From: Gloeocapsopsis sp. IPPAS B-1203
Lineage (GTDB): Bacteria; Cyanobacteriota; Cyanobacteriia; Cyanobacteriales; Chroococcidiopsidaceae
Assembly: GCF_002749975.1 (NCBI RefSeq)
Contig: NZ_PEIG01000001.1
Span: 124,001 to 188,000 of the forward strand
Direction: 5' to 3'
Length of the DNA stretch: 64,000 nucleotides
Position 1 is the first letter of the stretch. Each line of letters starts with the position of its first letter. The translations under genes and the position numbers were made by a program. The notes below the pieces were generated by a model. The model was not told the DNA's origin and ran no database searches. It saw only the letters and a program-made list of their open reading frames with translations. This document shows, in pieces, positions 16,106 through 23,240 of the stretch.

Positions 16106-17026
16106 TTGATCGCCCTCGAAGTTCACAACCTACATAAAACCTACAAGCAACGCAAAAAGCTCATTGAAGCTGTACGTGGCGTTTCTCTAAACATAAATTC
16201 TGGTGAAATTCTTGCATTTCTTGGTCCCAATGGCGCAGGAAAAACGACTTGTATCAAAATGATCGCGGGTTTAATCAAACCTGATGTAGGATCGGTAAAA
16301 ATTGCAGGTTCTGATCCGCATCGCAATCCGCGATCGCTACGCTTGGTAGGTGCAGTTTTAGAAGGAAACCGCAATCTCTATTGGCGACTGACTCCTGAAG
16401 AAAACTTAGAGTATTTTGGAACATTACGCGGACTTCATCGCCGTGTAGCGCATAAAAACGGACTGCAATTATTAGAAAGATTCGACTTACTATCAAAACG
16501 CCGCGCCCCAGTACAAACACTCTCACGCGGGATGCAGCAAAAGTTGGCGATCGCAGTTGCATTAGTTCACCAACCGCGATTGTTGTTACTCGACGAACCC
16601 ACGTTGGGTTTAGATGTAGAAGCTAGCCAAAATGTCAAAGTTTTAGTACGCGAGATTGCACAAGAAGGCTGTGCAATTTTGTTAACAACACATCAACTTG
16701 ATGTCGCAGAAGAAATCTCAGATCGCGTCGCGATTATTCAACAAGGTAAAATTTTAGCCGAGGAACGAACGCGCGAAATTATCCGGCGCTTTTCGGGTTC
16801 AACTTACATTATCGAGATAGCAGGTGAATTAGATTCCGTACAAACGAGTAAACTTGAATCTCTAGGTGTCATAGTCCAAGCCGATAGAATTATTTATGAG
16901 GGAACCTCAGAAGGTTTGTATCAAGTTCTAGCTGTTCTCAACCCTCTACCTTTAATCCAAGTCAAACAACAAGCTGATTTGACGCAAGTCTTCCTCAAAA
17001 TTGTCCGAGAAAACCGTAATGTTTGA
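16106..17026 (+). CDS. ABC exporter ATP-binding protein
   Basis: ATPase of 306 aa of the multidrug/antibiotic exporter type (CcmA/NatA-like). Walker A GPNGAGKTT (40-48), modified signature LSRGMQQK in place of LSGGQ, Walker B LLLLDEPTLGLD and switch His in LLTTHQLDVAEE. The last ~80 residues form the accessory domain common in this subfamily. The start is taken as TTG 16106, which gives the usual IALEVHNLHKTY N-terminus; no ATG lies close by. Its stop overlaps the permease start by 8 bp, indicating translational coupling. The substrate is unknown. Confidence 0.85.
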   Translation: MIALEVHNLHKTYKQRKKLIEAVRGVSLNINSGEILAFLGPNGAGKTTCIKMIAGLIKPDVGSVKIAGSDPHRNPRSLRLVGAVLEGNRNLYWRLTPEENLEYFGTLRGLHRRVAHKNGLQLLERFDLLSKRRAPVQTLSRGMQQKLAIAVALVHQPRLLLLDEPTLGLDVEASQNVKVLVREIAQEGCAILLTTHQLDVAEEISDRVAIIQQGKILAEERTREIIRRFSGSTYIIEIAGELDSVQTSKLESLGVIVQADRIIYEGTSEGLYQVLAVLNPLPLIQVKQQADLTQVFLKIVRENRNV

Positions 17027-17792
17027 ACTATTTTTAGCTGAACTCAAACGCAGTTGGATTGAGTTTACGCGCTATCCTGTTGATGCGATCGCCGGAGTTT
17101 TTATCATTACATCCGTATTTTATGGCTTATTTCTCAGTGCCCGTTACATTGCAGGTCCTAATTTACAATTTGGCGATCGCCTGGATGCGATCGTTGTCGG
17201 ATATGTGCTATGGACCTTAGTAATATTTATTGTTACGAGTATTGTCAGTATCCTGCAAATTGAAGCACAAACGGGAACTTTAGAGCAAGTCATACTAACA
17301 CCCTATGGTGTACCGCGAGTATTTTTGGCACGAGCGATCGCCAGCTTAACTATCAACATTGTCATAATTACAGGAATTTTACTACTAATTCTCTTACTAA
17401 CAGGACGACGTTTGTATTTTCCCCCGACTTTAATTTTGCCACTGCTGACAGTTTTGTTCGGTGCTTATGGTTTAGCCTTCCTCATGGCTTCTTTAGCTTT
17501 ACTATTTAAACGCATTCAGCAATTACTTGGGCTGACACAATTTGCCTTATTATTTCTCCTGACAATTCCCTCAGAAACCTGGAGTGGAACGTTATGGATT
17601 ATGCGATCGCTGTTACCAATGACAATGGGTGCAGGAATTCTCCGCGATTTAATGGCACGTAATCTAAGTTTAAACTTTGTTGAAATTTCACTTGCCTTTC
17701 TCAATGGATTAGGATACTTAGCCTTAGGTTTAATCGTATTTCGTCGTGCAGAAGTAGAAGCAAAGCGCCGAGGAATTTTAGGAGGATATTAG
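17019..17792 (+). CDS. ABC-2 type exporter permease
   Basis: Membrane permease of 257 aa with about six hydrophobic spans, partner of the preceding ATPase. ATG 17019 (MFELFLAELKRSWIEFTRYP) is preferred over TTG 17001 because ABC-2 permeases begin with a short cytoplasmic amphipathic segment like this. QAAL-type exporters have a loop such as TGTLEQVILTPYG, visible near residue 90. It overlaps the upstream ATPase gene by 8 bp. It converges with kptA, whose 3' end is 18 bp away. Confidence 0.83.
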   Translation: MFELFLAELKRSWIEFTRYPVDAIAGVFIITSVFYGLFLSARYIAGPNLQFGDRLDAIVVGYVLWTLVIFIVTSIVSILQIEAQTGTLEQVILTPYGVPRVFLARAIASLTINIVIITGILLLILLLTGRRLYFPPTLILPLLTVLFGAYGLAFLMASLALLFKRIQQLLGLTQFALLFLLTIPSETWSGTLWIMRSLLPMTMGAGILRDLMARNLSLNFVEISLAFLNGLGYLALGLIVFRRAEVEAKRRGILGGY

Positions 17793-17810
17793 ATACTTTT
17801 TCACACCTAA

Positions 17811-18353
17811 TTAAATGCGGTGTAGATAATCTGCTGGTACGCTATCTACTAACCAAACACTATTATCAGAACAGTAAAAAGTATAACCTGCTTGCTGCAT
17901 TGCACCTGCATCAATAGCAAACACAACTGGGTGTCCGTGTCTAGCACCAACTTTACGCGCTGTTTCAATGTCTGGTGATAAATGCACGTGATGTCGCGAC
18001 ATTTTGTTTAATCCATATTGCTGAATCAAATCTACAGCTTTATGTCCACCGTGATACAGCACATTGGGAGGAATAGCAGGTTTTAATTGTAAGTCAATTT
18101 CTACACTATGCCCTTGATTGGCTCGAATTAAATTACCAGTAACATCAAAAGAAAAGCGTTGTTTGTCATTTTTAGCAACAACTTCATCTAACTCACTACG
18201 GCTAATCGGAAAGGCATTTTTAGCACAAGCCGTTAATAATTCATCTACGTTAACCCAGCCGCCAGGAGCTAACTTTAAACCAAGACGTTCCGGTTGATGA
18301 CGCAGATGCTTGCTGAGATATTTACTAATTTTAACCTGACGAGTATTATTCAT
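17811..18353 (-). CDS. kptA: RNA 2'-phosphotransferase (Tpt1/KptA)
   Basis: Enzyme of 180 aa that moves an internal 2'-phosphate from RNA to NAD+, giving ADP-ribose 1'',2''-cyclic phosphate. The N-terminal lobe carries the RNA-contacting SKYLSKHLRHQPERLGL (about 9-25) with the catalytic Arg/His set. The C-terminal NAD-binding lobe has LYHGGHKAVDLI, HVHLSPDIETARKVGARHG and VWLVDSVPADYL. Full length. In yeast and plants it removes the splice-junction 2'-phosphate of tRNA; its bacterial role is unclear. It ends a minus-strand series starting with rtcB, which supports a role in RNA repair here. Confidence 0.9.
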   Translation of the reverse strand: MNNTRQVKISKYLSKHLRHQPERLGLKLAPGGWVNVDELLTACAKNAFPISRSELDEVVAKNDKQRFSFDVTGNLIRANQGHSVEIDLQLKPAIPPNVLYHGGHKAVDLIQQYGLNKMSRHHVHLSPDIETARKVGARHGHPVVFAIDAGAMQQAGYTFYCSDNSVWLVDSVPADYLHRI

Positions 18354-18413
18354 CGAAGTTAGGCATATACAAATTTAATATGCAGCCTACAAGCACGGTC
18401 GTGCTACCTACTA

Positions 18414-18842
18414 TCAAATATCTAAAATTACCATAGCTTGCCAACCATTAGCAGTTTTTTCTAATTGAAAACGGTGTAGCGTTACAGCTTTGACATCTAC
18501 GCGCTGATGATGTTTATTAGGATCAAGCTTTTCTCCTTTTGTAACTGCTTGAAGCTGGTATATTTCTTTTTGTTCTAACTTAACTTTTTGTGGACGCAGT
18601 AGTAATAATTCACTATCTTTGTAATAAATAAATTCTTGAAGAAAGTTGAATAGCAACATATCTAGCGCGTCATTTTCCAAGTTAAATGTGCGAGTTTCTT
18701 GGAGTGCGATCGCATCAATATTATCAATCATTGTATTAATTGTTGCATCACCCGCCGCGATGAATAATTCTTCTAAGTTTTCTCCCCAAACGTGAAAAGC
18801 AATGTCTGCGATCGCAACATCTTCTAAATACTCATAAGGCAT
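18414..18842 (-). CDS. Archease (RtcB activator)
   Basis: Archease-family protein of 142 aa from ATG 18842. Family features are PYEYLEDVAIADIAFHVWGE near the N-terminus, LENDALDMLLFNFLQEFIY in the middle, and VDVKAVTLHRFQLE plus VILDI at the end. In archaea and animals archease promotes guanylylation and turnover of RtcB, and the acidic metal-binding residues (D in VAIADIAF, the C-terminal D) are present. Its start overlaps the end of the COG0523 gene by 11 bp, so the two are translated together. Presence two genes from rtcB makes the assignment firm. Confidence 0.85.
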   Translation of the reverse strand: MPYEYLEDVAIADIAFHVWGENLEELFIAAGDATINTMIDNIDAIALQETRTFNLENDALDMLLFNFLQEFIYYKDSELLLLRPQKVKLEQKEIYQLQAVTKGEKLDPNKHHQRVDVKAVTLHRFQLEKTANGWQAMVILDI

Positions 18843-19731
18843 ATATCTTCTCACATCTTTTCAACTGATCGATAATTTCTTGTTGATATTTTTTGACTTG
18901 TCTACCAATAAAAACTAACTCTGTAGCATCTTGCTCAAATGGTTCTAAATCCCATCGTCCAGCTACAAAATTAAATAGATAAATTTGCTCGGTAAACCTT
19001 ATAAAACCTTTTGCTCGATACATGTCTTTTTCTATTAATTTATCGGCAAAATCCTCAAAACATGCTCGCTTTAAAGTAGCCTGCGTTTTATAACTAAATG
19101 ACTCAAACTCAGGTTGATGAACATGATGAGGTTCTGGTTGTAGTCGCTCTCTCACAATACCAAATAACAAATCTGGATCGACTTGACAGCGTTGAGTATG
19201 TAAAATTTCAGCAACTTCGTTATACGAGTGCAACTTTGTTTCGATTGCTTGCAATTGTTCTTCTGTTACTAAATCAACTTTATTGAGTAATATTGTATCT
19301 GCGGCTTCAATTTGCATTCGTGTCGTGTGACCAACACTAGGATATCTCACCATCGCATCAGCATCAACGACAGTCACTACACCATCCAATCGGACTTTAG
19401 TTAAACTTTCTTGAATATCAAATACTAATGCATCAGGTTCTGCTACACCCGTTGTTTCCACCACAATCATATCAGGATTAACTGTCTCGATGATTTCGTC
19501 AACTGCAGCTTCAAATTCCCCAAGTAGCGAACAACAAACACATCCACCACCCAGATCTGCCATTGCCACATTTTTACCTTGAATGATCTTGGTATCAATC
19601 GCAATTTCACCAAACTCGTTCATCAAAATAGCAATTTTTTGAGGAATCGAATCAAGAATGTGACGTAGCAAAGTCGTTTTACCGCTACCTAGTGAACCTG
19701 TAATAACTGTAAGTGGAATGCGCGGTTCCAT
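18832..19731 (-). CDS. COG0523-type GTPase, putative metallochaperone
   Basis: G3E GTPase of the CobW/YjiA/ZNG1 group, 299 aa. P-loop GSLGSGKTT (12-20), the metal-binding CxCC at 64-67 (GGGCVCCS), Walker B-like VVETTGVAEPD, and base-recognition NKVD. The C-terminal domain (about 200-299) contains the CobW_C pattern RAKGFIRFTEQ. Family members load or insert Zn, Co or Fe into client enzymes; the client here is unknown. Sandwiched between rtcB and archease with an 11-bp overlap, so a metal-handling link to RtcB (a Mn-dependent enzyme) is an attractive inference. Confidence 0.88.
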   Translation of the reverse strand: MEPRIPLTVITGSLGSGKTTLLRHILDSIPQKIAILMNEFGEIAIDTKIIQGKNVAMADLGGGCVCCSLLGEFEAAVDEIIETVNPDMIVVETTGVAEPDALVFDIQESLTKVRLDGVVTVVDADAMVRYPSVGHTTRMQIEAADTILLNKVDLVTEEQLQAIETKLHSYNEVAEILHTQRCQVDPDLLFGIVRERLQPEPHHVHQPEFESFSYKTQATLKRACFEDFADKLIEKDMYRAKGFIRFTEQIYLFNFVAGRWDLEPFEQDATELVFIGRQVKKYQQEIIDQLKRCEKIYAL

Positions 19732-19777
19732 AGTTTATATCTGTTTTTATAACAGCTTGCTAAAAATCAAAAGTCAC

Positions 19778-21238
19778 CTAGCCTTTGATATTCCCAATAG
19801 GTGTAAAACGCACGACTCTTTTGCTAATTCCGGCTAATTCTGCGGCTTCAATCACTTCATCAACGTCTTTGTAAGCGCCTCCAGCTTCTTCTGCTAAACC
19901 AGCCCACGAGGTACTGCGGACGTAAATACCCCGCGTTTGCATCTCTTTTTGCAGTTTTTCACCTCGAAACGTTTTTCGCGCCTTGGTTCGACTCATCGTA
20001 CGTCCACTTCCATGCGCCGTGCTAAAGAAACTTTGTGCGCCACTGGGTACACCTAATAACAAGTAAGAACCAGTTTCCATACTGCCACCAATAATCACTG
20101 GTTGACCGATATGTTGGTACTTCTCAGGAACACCCATCATTCCAGGCGCAAATGCACGAGTTGCACCTTTACGATGTACTAAAAGCGATCGCTCTTTACC
20201 ATCTACTACATGACGTTCTAGTTTAGCCGTATTATGCGCTACGTCATATACCACATGCATTCCTAAATCTTCTGCGGAACGCCCAAAAATCTCCGAAAAA
20301 ACTTCACGAATCCGGTGTAAGATCACTTGACGATTAGCAAACGACATATTTAAACCGCACTTCATCGCCGAAAAATAGGCTTGTCCTTCAGGCGAATCAA
20401 ATGGCGCACAAGCTAACTCGCGGTCCAAAATTTTGATGCCATACTTGCTTTCCATCACCTTGAGGAAAACTTGCAGATAATCAGTCGCTACTTGATGTCC
20501 AAAACCACGACTACCACAGTGAAACATCACAACGACCTGATCTGGTTGAGTAATACCCATTTTTGCTGCTAATTCGGTATCAAAAATATCCTTCTTTTTA
20601 GCAACCTGAATTTCTAGATAATGGTTTCCAGAACCTAAAGTTCCAATTTGATTAAAACCACGATCAATTGCTTTTTCACTAATCTTGGCAGCATCCGCAC
20701 CTGCAATACAACCTTGTTCTTCTATCAGTTCTAAATCTTCATCCCAACCATAACCATTTTCAACGCACCACTGTGCACCTCGTTCGACGACTTTGCGAAA
20801 TTCATTACGGGATATTTTGACAAAGCCACTGCTTCCTACCCCTGCAGGAACTCGTTCATACAGCCGATCGACAATTTTTTTAATATACGGTTTTACCTCG
20901 TCATACGTCAGGTTTGTCACTACCAAACGCATTCCACAATTGATATCAAACCCGATACCACCAGGAGAGATAACGCCGCCATTTTCGACATCCATAGCCG
21001 CAACTCCACCAATAGGGAAGCCATAGCCAAAGTGTCCGTCTGGCATACACAAGGCATATTGAGTTATCCCTGGAAGTGTTGCTACATTAGTAACTTGGTC
21101 ATAAACAGCATCATCCATTTCCTGGATTAATTTTTCCGTTCCATAAATACGTGCTGGAACGCGCATTCCTTCTTTGTACGAGAGAGGAATTTCCCAAATC
21201 GTATCCGAGATTTGGCTTAATGATTTAATATCAGCCAT
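19778..21238 (-). CDS. rtcB: RNA-splicing ligase RtcB
   Basis: GTP- and Mn-dependent ligase (486 aa) that joins RNA 3'-phosphate or 2',3'-cyclic phosphate ends to 5'-OH ends. Visible active-site stretches are MPDGHFGYGFPIGGVAA (metal and substrate pocket), GFDINCGMRL (metal-binding Cys), GSGNHYLEIQ, MFHCGSRGFGHQ (His), and the C-terminal GSMETGSYLLLG with the guanylylated His in STAHGSGRTMSR. Full family length with no inserted intein. First gene of the RNA-repair series; the next gene starts 47 bp downstream. Confidence 0.95.
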   Translation of the reverse strand: MADIKSLSQISDTIWEIPLSYKEGMRVPARIYGTEKLIQEMDDAVYDQVTNVATLPGITQYALCMPDGHFGYGFPIGGVAAMDVENGGVISPGGIGFDINCGMRLVVTNLTYDEVKPYIKKIVDRLYERVPAGVGSSGFVKISRNEFRKVVERGAQWCVENGYGWDEDLELIEEQGCIAGADAAKISEKAIDRGFNQIGTLGSGNHYLEIQVAKKKDIFDTELAAKMGITQPDQVVVMFHCGSRGFGHQVATDYLQVFLKVMESKYGIKILDRELACAPFDSPEGQAYFSAMKCGLNMSFANRQVILHRIREVFSEIFGRSAEDLGMHVVYDVAHNTAKLERHVVDGKERSLLVHRKGATRAFAPGMMGVPEKYQHIGQPVIIGGSMETGSYLLLGVPSGAQSFFSTAHGSGRTMSRTKARKTFRGEKLQKEMQTRGIYVRSTSWAGLAEEAGGAYKDVDEVIEAAELAGISKRVVRFTPIGNIKG

Positions 21239-21642
21239 TTTTTAATTAAAGAATACTTGAAAAATAATTTAAATTAGATTTAATTTGACTTTGACGTTGT
21301 GTTGTTGAAGTGCATTATTCTCACAGATAATTTAAAATTCATTGACGATTTTTAATAGAAAGTAGAGCTAAAGTTTTCTACTTGCAGAACTCTACTTTCG
21401 GAAACTACATTCACAAACAACACCTATATAGCAATCCAATTTGAGTTTTCATTTTTGAAAACAAACCATAAAGTATACAAAAAAAACTCTTGCATGAATG
21501 CTTGACGAATAAATTAGCAGCCGAACAAAGGAAAATCTACCAGGGTGAACTTATTGATAAAAGTCTTGTTTAAGTGTACAAAGGTACACTTTGTTTGAGT
21601 AGCCCCTGACTTCAGTCAGAAGGCGTTTATGATTGTACTTGA
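21239..21642. other. AT-rich intergenic region upstream of rtcB
   Basis: No gene seen. It must contain the rtcB promoter (minus strand). AT-rich with short repeats of AAAC/TTTG but no clear hairpin or operator. Confidence 0.5.
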
Positions 21643-21846
21643 TTACGAATTTGGTTCTTCTGCAGGACGTTGTGTTGCAGGAGGATAATCTACAAATTCT
21701 TGCGTTCTTGTCGTATTTGTAGTAGCTCCTTCGGGTAGAAGATCTTCAGGAGCGACGGTTTTGTCCGCAGCAACATCCATGACACCTTCAGCATTTGTAT
21801 TCGGTTTGTCAGAAGTACCTTTATGATTGGCATGACCGCTAGACAT
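21643..21846 (-). CDS. Small acidic hypothetical protein
   Basis: 67-aa hydrophilic protein rich in Thr, Pro, Glu and Asn, with no hydrophobic segment (SSGHANHKGTSDKPNTNAEG at the start, PPATQRPAEEPNS at the end). Probably intrinsically disordered. An AGAAAATTG leader precedes the ATG but no strong Shine-Dalgarno. A second small, charged, disordered-looking protein lies at 32145-32417. I recognise no family. Confidence 0.5.
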   Translation of the reverse strand: MSSGHANHKGTSDKPNTNAEGVMDVAADKTVAPEDLLPEGATTNTTRTQEFVDYPPATQRPAEEPNS

Positions 21847-21975
21847 ATCAATTTTCTCGCATTACATAACTGAACACACATTCAGCTTAAGATCGGGGAA
21901 TATAGTGCATACCCTATCTAAGGACTTAGATTCAATCAGCCGCAGTGCTCTTATGCGATCGCATCTCAAATAGTT

Positions 21976-22365
21976 TTACTCTCCCACAACAGTTGCGCCC
22001 ATTTGAGCTTCTTGCCAAAGCTTAGACAGTAAACACTCAACTACATAGTACAAAGTAGTCACAAAAATACCTTCTTCAGTCTCTGTATCGGATGTTAGCC
22101 AAGTACCTTGAAGAGAGACTTCGATATAATCTGCGTCACAAGCACACAGCGTAATTGTATCCTCTTTGAAGCGTCGAGCCTCAGTCTCTAGAGAATCCAA
22201 CCCTGGTAAATCAGCAGGTAATAAAAACGAAGCCATGCTAGGTTCAACACAGATGCGTTTACCGACTCGGAGTGCCAAAGTAACTCGCAGTGCTACCCAT
22301 TCCTCTAGTGGTTGCGTTAAGTACTCTAAACAGAAATTCTTATCAAGATATGTTAGTTTCAGCAT
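21976..22365 (-). CDS. Cyanobacterial conserved protein (alr0857-like)
   Basis: Protein of 129 aa resembling a cyanobacterial family I recall as alr0857. It opens with LKLTYLDKNFCLEYLTQPLE, continues WVALRVTLALRVGKRICVEPS and SFLLPADLPGL, and ends in a region with CACDADYIEVSLQGTWL. No catalytic motif or membrane span is seen and the function is unknown. Its first 23 bp overlap the end of the HNH gene, so the two are probably translated from one message. Confidence 0.7.
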   Translation of the reverse strand: MLKLTYLDKNFCLEYLTQPLEEWVALRVTLALRVGKRICVEPSMASFLLPADLPGLDSLETEARRFKEDTITLCACDADYIEVSLQGTWLTSDTETEEGIFVTTLYYVVECLLSKLWQEAQMGATVVGE

Positions 22366-22900
22366 TGTGCTTTGAAGTTCCTCCTATTTCAGGTGGAAAT
22401 GGCTCAGATCGCCAAAAATGTTCGGCAAAAGCAACCGTGGGGTGCATTGGTGCTTTTGGTTTAGTGTGTAGAGGCATACCAGCTTCAAGAGGAGTGCGAT
22501 CGCTTTTACGTTGGTTACACCTCTCGCAAGCCGTGACAACATTATCCCAAGTGTGTAAACCACCTCTAGATACTGGAAGGACATGATCGAGTGTCAAATG
22601 TTTGCGGCTGCTACAGTATTGACAAGTATGGTTGTCGCGTCGCAGCACTTCGCGCCGATTGACTGGCGGAACTTTCCAAATTCGCTCGACACTAGCAACT
22701 GTTAATCGAATATAAGCTGGAACTGCAAGTACAATACTTGGCGATCGCACGAACCAGCTTGTCTCTTGAACTAAATCTAGTGCTTCAGCTTTACCTGCAA
22801 TTAATAGTTGAACAGCTCGTCGGACGTTAACTTTACTGATCGGAAGATAATTTTTGGAAAATACAACTACTGACTGGTCTAATACTTGATTTGCAATCAT
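22343..22900 (-). CDS. HNH endonuclease family protein
   Basis: 185-aa protein. N-terminal part (VVVFSKNYLPISKVNVRRAV, about 10-30) matches the lead-in common to cyanobacterial HNH proteins. The HNH nuclease core lies near 90-140: TCQYCSSRKHLTLDHVLPVS, a CxxC pair, DH catalytic residues, GGLHTWDNVVTACERCNQRK with Asn and the second CxxC. Zinc ribbon and catalytic His are intact. AGGAGCT precedes the ATG. It is upstream of, and overlaps, the alr0857-like gene. Its cellular role is unknown; these genes are widespread and not tied to restriction here. Confidence 0.85.
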   Translation of the reverse strand: MIANQVLDQSVVVFSKNYLPISKVNVRRAVQLLIAGKAEALDLVQETSWFVRSPSIVLAVPAYIRLTVASVERIWKVPPVNRREVLRRDNHTCQYCSSRKHLTLDHVLPVSRGGLHTWDNVVTACERCNQRKSDRTPLEAGMPLHTKPKAPMHPTVAFAEHFWRSEPFPPEIGGTSKHNAETNIS

Positions 22901-22917
22901 AATAACCTAGCTCCTAT

Positions 22918-22953
22918 ATAAAAACCCCCACTTCTGTACGCGAGAAGCAGGGG
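22918..22953 (-). terminator. Rho-independent terminator ahead of the HNH gene
   Basis: On the minus strand an 11-bp stem (CCCCTGCTTCT with AGAAGTGGGGG, two wobble pairs) with a 7-nt loop is followed by TTTTT. It lies 24 bp after the stop of the small frame at 22977-23240 and 18 bp before the HNH start, so it either ends that upstream transcript or attenuates HNH expression. Confidence 0.7.
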
Positions 22954-22976
22954 CTGGGAAAGACCTTTAAATCCTT

Positions 22977-23240
22977 TTATCTTTGTGTAGGTATAATGTG
23001 CCATCTACACCTCCCGCTCAGCTTCTTTAGTTGTAGTGCAGTTAATAGCACATTACACAAATCTGCTAAATTTTCACCCTTAACTTTTCTAGCTTGCCAA
23101 TGATTTAAGCGATCGCCTCTTATTTTTTGGATAAACTTGCTACTTGTGCCTAATCTTTTCAGTTCAATAACTTTTAATTCCCACAGATCAACACTTAGGG
23201 TAAAAATCACAGAAACAGAAGTAGAGTCGGTACGTTTCAC
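22977..23240 (-). CDS. Small basic hypothetical protein
   Basis: 87-codon frame: LSVDLWELKVIELKRLG, RGDRLNHWQARKVKGENLAD, then LCNVLLTALQLKKLSGRCRW and an end in HIIPTQR. Basic and amphipathic, with no recognised domain. A strong terminator starts 24 bp after the stop, which supports transcription on this strand. The start is uncertain because the frame extends upstream without a clear ribosome binding site. It could also be the decayed end of a longer gene. Confidence 0.4.
   Translation of the reverse strand: MKRTDSTSVSVIFTLSVDLWELKVIELKRLGTSSKFIQKIRGDRLNHWQARKVKGENLADLCNVLLTALQLKKLSGRCRWHIIPTQR

Follow-up and report, generated by a model that had tools for sequence, protein, structure and literature searches.

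Why should a COG0523/CobW-type GTPase be encoded between an RNA ligase and the activator of that ligase? The question is raised by a cluster of four minus-strand genes in the cyanobacterium Gloeocapsopsis sp. IPPAS B-1203, located in a stretch of 64,000 nucleotides (contig NZ_PEIG01000001.1, positions 124,001 to 188,000) that we refer to as the window. The genes are rtcB, the GTPase gene, archease and kptA. Based on the comparative evidence obtained here, the locus is understood as an RtcB-archease operon equipped with a dedicated COG0523 GTPase that acts on the metal state of RtcB, with kptA outside the mechanism, and we place the probability of this reading at roughly 0.55. The finding worth keeping is the three-gene unit of RtcB, COG0523 GTPase and archease; the four-gene cluster itself is real, and its members are as follows.

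17811..18353, minus strand: kptA/tpt1, RNA 2'-phosphotransferase, 180 amino acids (aa); from open reading frame (ORF), Pfam and NCBIfam; a family-specific neighbour, outside the core
18414..18842, minus strand: archease, RtcB activator, 142 aa counted from the ATG; from ORF and Pfam
18832..19731, minus strand: COG0523/CobW-type GTPase, 299 aa; from ORF, Pfam and motifs; a member of the RtcB-linked clade
19778..21238, minus strand: rtcB, RNA 3'-phosphate/5'-OH ligase, 486 aa; from ORF, Pfam and aligned residues

The initial annotation had described these four genes in this arrangement, and their identities and placement stand, as do the overlap of 11 nt between GTPase and archease (18832-18842, with archease starting at ATG 18842) and the 60 bp between archease and kptA (18354-18413); the spacing of rtcB and GTPase is 46 bp (19732-19777), not 47. 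The mechanical ORF start of archease is a GTG at 18854, instead of which ATG 18842 was used. On the evidence of the sequence, rtcB and archease are co-linear on one strand with small gaps and the GTPase in between, an arrangement in which the three genes would be co-transcribed. All Pfam scores lie above their cut-offs (RtcB PF01139, 564 bits; KptA PF01885, 172 bits; archease PF01951, 133.8 bits against 25; GTPase, CobW PF02492 157.5 bits against 20.7 and CobW_C 49.5 bits against 22), and KptA also reaches its equivalog NF002014 (274 bits, cut-off 239); archease misses the NCBIfam threshold of NF001617 (89.6 of 126 bits). The solved relatives by sequence are Pyrococcus horikoshii RtcB and human RTCB for RtcB, archaeal and human proteins for archease (aligned to 4n2p and 8btx), Escherichia coli YjiA only for the GTPase and several RNA 2'-phosphotransferases for KptA, the organisms of these entries being in part presumed. 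The window genome has a single RtcB match and eight COG0523 matches, and Gloeocapsopsis crepidinum is its closest named relative among the matches listed (RtcB, 97%).

Conservation of the gene order was surveyed from RtcB in GTDB-species genomes, in which the best 80 of at least 559 confirmed RtcB matches were taken and their loci scanned with the four window proteins. The order rtcB-GTPase-archease on one strand is present in 46 of the 80 loci. Both intergenic gaps are below 60 bp in 23 of these 46 triads, and GTPase and archease overlap in three when counted from the first in-frame stop, as they do by 11 nt in the window. By title the triad loci belong to Cyanobacteria (27), Verrucomicrobia and Acidobacteria, with one each from Tectomicrobia, Nitrospinota and Nitrospirae; because many are metagenome bins, single taxon labels may be wrong. 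The pairing of rtcB with archease, which the initial annotation took as known, recurs across the 80 loci with the GTPase (46) or without it (27). The GTPase-less pairs are titled anammox bacteria, Chloroflexi, Deltaproteobacteria, Omnitrophota and others, and 26 of the 28 loci labelled as having no GTPase carry titles of metagenome-assembled genomes. In none of 27 genomes with a GTPase-less rtcB (26 with archease beside it, and L053 with none there) is a member of the GTPase clade found elsewhere, the best match having 38% identity. Of the remaining seven loci, L020 and L039 end within the GTPase, L007, L054 and L067 end shortly past rtcB, and L047 and L053 are considered below. Two loci are curious in their own right: L081, titled Acidobacteria gp2, has RtcB and GTPase that nest among those of soil Verrucomicrobia, indicating transfer or misbinning, and Microseira wollei (L063:10439-14153) has archease again downstream of its triad, once as a second copy and once as a fragment.

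The reverse search, starting from the GTPase with a cut at an expectation value (E) of 1e-50 or 1e-60, places the clade in 5 of 386 cyanobacteria, 3 of 199 genomes of an Acidobacteria-centred sample, 1 of 145 genomes of a Verrucomicrobia-centred sample (the centre genome itself) and 11 of the 19 genomes of the window's family. The score gap is wide, at least 604 bits within the genus against 146 for the next COG0523 protein (in a first sample of 108). Among the 18 distinct genomes so obtained, archease is adjacent to the GTPase in all 18 and rtcB lies upstream in 17, four of which (G831, G842, G853 and G197) have an extra ORF in the rtcB-GTPase gap. The counts from the two directions are not independent, since about 10 of the 18 genomes, including all four non-cyanobacteria, are common to both. 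In another cyanobacterium (G159, L092), rtcB and the GTPase gene are both decayed remnants, side by side. Separately, one related genus has a sulfotransferase-like ORF between rtcB and GTPase (L176:4179-4937, L188:5021-5794 and L189:6946-7826, broken in L189).

Which GTPase occupies this position? The window protein has the P-loop GSLGSGKTT (G12-T19), a CVCC motif (C64/C66/C67) and NKVD (N150-K151-x-D153). The GGCxCC core is kept in 45 of 45 linked GTPases and the longer signature GGCVCCSLxGEFEAA in 44, L011 deviating, whereas the paralogues carry NGC[IL]CC; the linked proteins have further private residues in both domains. They form one clade against 12 cyanobacterial paralogues, with a Shimodaira-Hasegawa-like approximate likelihood ratio (SH-aLRT) support of 100 in a quick tree that gave long-branch warnings. 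ZNG1, a COG0523 GTPase with a proposed client or metal, has an N-terminal client-binding extension; the window GTPase has no extension of that type, its P-loop beginning at residue 12. It misses the cut-offs of the CobW equivalog TIGR02475 (128 of 332 bits) and of ZigA NF038288 (103 of 600 bits), and with zero Cys in residues 1-63 it is without the extra Cys pair ahead of CxCC that is described as a feature of CobW (PMC7895991).

The three proteins also diverge together. Over the 44 loci at which each of the three proteins is close to full length, Mantel correlations are 0.856 for RtcB-GTPase, 0.876 for RtcB-archease and 0.862 for GTPase-archease, with none of 2000 permutations as high; at 17 non-cyanobacterial loci, computed without permutations, r is 0.91 for RtcB-GTPase and 0.89 for RtcB-archease. 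Ratios of nonsynonymous to synonymous substitution (dN/dS) against three family members are low, at 0.048-0.078 for RtcB and 0.087-0.094 for the GTPase; archease gives 0.049-0.152, with one dS close to saturation, and KptA 0.092-0.172. When the GTPase is mapped as present or absent on the RtcB tree, 6 changes are required compared with a mean of 23 for shuffled labels; it has thus undergone repeated gain or loss, at a constant position. For the tree and for the column tests below, L020 and L039, which break off within the GTPase, were labelled 'yes', as was the window, and L053 'no'; L007, L047, L054 and L067 were left unlabelled, although L047, with 2.2 kb downstream free of GTPase and archease, could count as 'no'. 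A survey of co-occurrence, which the initial annotation had proposed with random adjacency as the refuting outcome, hence shows rtcB, GTPase and archease to be associated beyond chance (46 of 80 loci, a single GTPase clade, co-divergence). The GTPase could be a mere passenger of a transferred cassette that holds rtcB and archease, as its patchy distribution (5 of 386 cyanobacteria) and the 6 changes on the tree might suggest. We hold this to be very improbable, given its fixed slot between the two genes, the co-divergence and the low dN/dS; likewise, the search for a mobile origin gave no plasmid match at E 1e-40 and none in viral contigs (a search for close relatives only), and the phage matches are merely 25-35% identical.

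If the GTPase belongs with RtcB and archease, what might it do there? RtcB uses two divalent metals with a Cys among their ligands, and archease contributes to an additional metal position and stimulates guanylylation (PMC10630183, PMC10944509); archease itself is described as having a conserved metal site and a role in the coordination of guanosine triphosphate (GTP) and metal (PMC3973293, PMC10944509). In the window RtcB, D98, C101, H206, H240, H335 and H409 align with D95, C98, H203, H234, H329 and H404 of the P. horikoshii enzyme, and these six residues (metal ligands and the guanylylated His) are identical in 77 of 77 rows, except for one X at H409. COG0523 proteins are considered to act as metal insertases and/or metallochaperones (PMC2770081). 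Because the data on the RtcB Cys and metals, the metal role of COG0523 and the data on archease combine in this way, we favour an action of the GTPase on the RtcB metal site. RtcB would join RNA ends bearing a 2',3'-cyclic phosphate or 3'-phosphate to 5'-OH ends; the GTPase, presumably through physical interaction, would use its CxCC motif and GTP hydrolysis to keep the Cys-containing metal site of RtcB in the right metal state, either through metal insertion or through replacement of an incorrect metal, zinc for example. It would act before archease lets GTP in and promotes RtcB guanylylation. KptA would be an accessory neighbour in the window's family, with no part in the mechanism.

Several observations weigh against this reading. 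The 27 loci at which rtcB and archease are paired without the GTPase imply that RtcB-archease needs no GTPase in general, and at L047 (2.2 kb downstream) and L053 (8 kb downstream) rtcB is accompanied by neither GTPase nor archease. Frame breaks affect the GTPase or rtcB in L051, L078 and L081. No position of RtcB or archease, judged by eye, clearly tracks the presence of the GTPase once relatedness is considered; RtcB G295 and R421 gave the best columns, yet look like relatedness and were rejected as GTPase-specific residues. Zur-like palindromes do not exceed chance in the window (4 against 5.96 expected), which leaves zinc regulation unsupported. One two-contig genome (G894, L192:9206-10508) has GTPase and archease adjacent and rtcB not beside them, the 4.5 kb upstream of the GTPase holding other genes. 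Lastly, of the COG0523 proteins measured, CobW takes Co, and YeiR and YjiA favour Zn and have a very weak affinity for Mn (PMC7895991).

This last point bears directly on the proposal of the initial annotation that a metal-handling GTPase could serve a Mn-dependent RtcB. As a lead it is the best available, the GTPase being a non-random neighbour; its Mn component fares less well, in that YeiR and YjiA hardly bind the metal and that Zn and Co inhibit human RTCB, and a simple 'Mn loading' is not assumed here because the measured COG0523 proteins bind Zn or Co and hardly Mn. The metals used by RtcB are themselves described as unsettled (PMC10630183, PMC10944509): for human RTCB, Mn is best and equimolar Zn or Co inhibits ligation (PMC10944509), and according to a review of earlier work, Co supports ligation by human RtcB too, and Zn or Mg does so to a lesser extent (PMC10630183). 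The GTPase might thus strip inhibitory Zn(II), or Cu, from RtcB instead of loading a metal, a possibility that gains from the dissociation constants (KD) of YjiA (3.7e-12 M for Zn, 1e-4 M or weaker for Mn), the similar Zn preference of YeiR (PMC7895991) and the said inhibition of human RTCB by equimolar Zn (PMC10944509). Such zinc editing is nevertheless unlikely. COG0523 proteins are described as insertases and/or metallochaperones (PMC2770081); an older review passage has P. horikoshii RtcB tolerating Zn in one site, and the human enzyme retains some ligation with Zn (PMC10630183); and sequence sets no direction of transfer.

A further option is that the client is archease, or that the GTPase is a GTP-dependent switch on the RtcB-archease complex in which the metal is merely structural. 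The archease metal site with its GTP and metal coordination (PMC3973293, PMC10944509) is compatible with this, as is G894, in which GTPase and archease remain adjacent with no neighbouring rtcB. Set against the invariance of GGCxCC in all 45 linked GTPases and a co-divergence of the GTPase with RtcB (0.856) as strong as with archease (0.862), it appears distinctly improbable. An action of the GTPase on the metal site of RtcB, with insertion or exchange as the possible modes, is the reading retained.

What, then, of kptA, which the initial annotation counted as a fourth cluster member? The claim has proved weak. Within flanks of at most 8 kb, kptA appears in only 1 of the 80 RtcB-first loci (L002, of the window's genus), and linkage to the triad was found in the window's family alone, in 4 of 11 triad genomes, on the same strand and downstream of archease. 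The distance from archease is 60 bp in the window, about 36 bp in G865, about 0.85 kb in G831 and 1.6 kb in G005, a Gloeocapsopsis genome, and in two of these genomes the interval contains other ORFs; the insert in G005 comprises an alpha/beta hydrolase and broken toxin-antitoxin-like ORFs, the latter read by eye. Around the other seven family triads kptA was not found in the stretches covered, which for G898 reach only about 650 bp downstream. In G842 and G853 the triad sits between the same flanking genes without kptA. In G499 (L187:6756-11390), which has no triad, the upstream genes (alr0857 family and HNH) are the same and those downstream are different; kptA lies a few kb below the upstream pair, and the interval holds an AAA ATPase and an ATP-dependent RNA ligase of the DRB0094 type (158 bits against a cut-off of 151). 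Among 28 cyanobacterial kptA loci (L116-L123 and L151-L171, the duplicate L162 excluded), 12 have this AAA ATPase no more than 1.5 kb to either side. Because its linkage is confined to one family and interrupted, and in view of G499, G842, G853 and the AAA ATPase, kptA more plausibly forms part of a different RNA-repair context, one that shares this site within a single family. For the earlier suggestion that KptA implies a second type of ligase, G499 adds a hint, from one triad-less family member, by placing kptA near a DRB0094-type RNA ligase. A suspected case beside the triad in Tolypothrix (L019), raised by coordinates, was ruled out, the contig being of another length and the stretch having no rtcB.

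At the genome level, KptA occurs in 34 of 292 cyanobacteria and in 88 of 148 genomes of the window's order. Among the 29 distinct cyanobacterial triad genomes (two duplicates with identical coordinates removed, L013 left out) it is present in 23 and was not found in six; the comparison with 85 of 145 genomes of the order gives p = 0.04, uncorrected for relatedness and with a control from which three triad genomes were removed and in which further ones remain. Only 2 of 12 non-cyanobacterial triad genomes have it. The window KptA reads HGGHK and is without the Thr of the HGT motif, which is present in the other 30 of 31 rows (rows that include duplicate genomes and do not count loci missed by the pattern); the missing Thr means that the window KptA may be weakened.

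Some loci bring in further RNA-end enzymes. Five of the 27 cyanobacterial triads have an RtcA gene after archease (L010, L015, L017, L021 and L024), and a 2H phosphoesterase of the cyclic phosphodiesterase (CPDase) type stands between rtcB and GTPase in L014:9606-10133 and L016:9487-10011 and directly after rtcB in L067:8256-8768; these neighbours fit a role of the operon in RNA-end repair. RtcA gave no match in the 64-kb window. In E. coli, the rtcBA operon is controlled by RtcR. The cyclic product that KptA forms can be a substrate for enzymes of the 2H family (PMC9503650). Taken with the same-strand kptA at 36 bp to 1.6 kb past archease in four family genomes and with the enrichment at p = 0.04, qualified as above, the accessory enzymes would suit a four-gene RNA-repair system that includes KptA and deals with two kinds of RNA ends. 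We judge this quite improbable, more so than a role centred on archease, given that kptA is outside the flanks of every RtcB-first locus beyond the genus, that it and the triad are each found without the other at the corresponding site (G499; G842 and G853), that ORFs intervene in two of the four linked genomes, that the AAA ATPase adjoins kptA in 12 of 28 loci, and that KptA is present in 2 of 12 non-cyanobacterial triad genomes.

The surroundings of the cluster were considered as well. Upstream of the window rtcB, an HNH endonuclease gene (22343-22900) overlaps an alr0857-family gene (21976-22365), and the two occupy the same site in triad-bearing relatives and also in G499, which is without the triad; a 67-aa ORF read by eye (21643-21846, minus strand) lies between alr0857 and rtcB. 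tRNA genes are present in 4 of 53 loci scanned, and positions 17000-23000 have no Rfam match at E 0.1. A hairpin between archease and kptA was no better than shuffles (z -0.33). Anti-phage defence was set aside, with no PADLOC match for RtcB, archease or KptA and a GTPase match confined to a 27-residue P-loop stretch. Oxygen as the reason for the GTPase found no support: over the 47 genomes covered, of 48 drawn from the 80 loci (L021 left out), COX1 (PF00115, at least 190 bits, a line chosen after the scores were known) is present in 17 of the 20 that have the GTPase and in 17 of the 27 that do not (Fisher p = 0.11).

Analogies exist with known systems. The RtcB-archease 'tRNA splicing operon' of Desai et al. 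2014 (PMC3973293) also unites rtcB and archease, with archease activating RtcB and the same families and residues involved; here a COG0523 GTPase intervenes, and the main text of that paper is without the word GTPase. The E. coli rtcBA operon (PMC3973293) shares RtcB and resembles the cyanobacterial triads in which RtcA follows archease; unlike it, the window has archease and the GTPase and no RtcA match. With the COG0523 GTPases CobW, Nha3 and YjiA/YeiR, read as client-specific metal chaperones (PMC2770081, PMC7895991), the window protein has the P-loop, CxCC, NKxD and CobW_C in common; it differs in its separation from the 12 paralogues compared, its own signature, its scores below the CobW and ZigA cut-offs and a partner that is an RNA ligase. 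PYROXD1 in metazoa similarly tends the metal-binding Cys of RTCB before archease acts, but as a flavoprotein oxidoreductase and not a GTPase (PMC12263435). KptA/Tpt1 is reported near RNA-end enzymes as in the window; there it is partnered by RNA ligases together with 2H and Macro proteins, and the associations described in that source do not feature an RtcB-GTPase-archease unit (PMC9503650). A diverged RtcB-archease pair is known from a hot-spring lineage of cyanobacteria (PMC9600594).

The full texts within reach, which exclude most subscription journals, figures and supplements, include none that pairs RtcB with COG0523 or CobW, or COG0523 with archease, and the main text of Haas et al. (PMC2770081), searched apart from figures and additional files, has zero mentions of rtcB or archease. 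Among the literature matches listed, one full-text search gave no mention of a metallochaperone, another none of archease, and a third a single RtcB paper, on release factors; texts naming RtcB and KptA together concern phage or virus systems and RNA ADP-ribosylation. The association of RtcB, COG0523 and archease may be in print or in databases elsewhere.

Stated most broadly, RtcB could be served as a client by a GTP-driven metal chaperone or editor of its own, in the form of a COG0523 subfamily that co-evolved with RtcB and archease and that in some lineages is part of a larger RNA-repair island with RtcA, cyclic phosphodiesterase or KptA, a tentative view to which we give slightly less than an even chance. 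For most of the widespread COG0523 proteins no target is evident (PMC2770081); the gene order found in several phyla names a testable partner for one subfamily of these metal chaperones. If the GTPase loads Mn, it would differ from the COG0523 proteins measured so far. If the reading is true, RtcB would be an RNA ligase with dedicated metal maturation, and a dedicated chaperone would make both the target of this COG0523 subfamily and the metal question of RtcB testable with three purified proteins.

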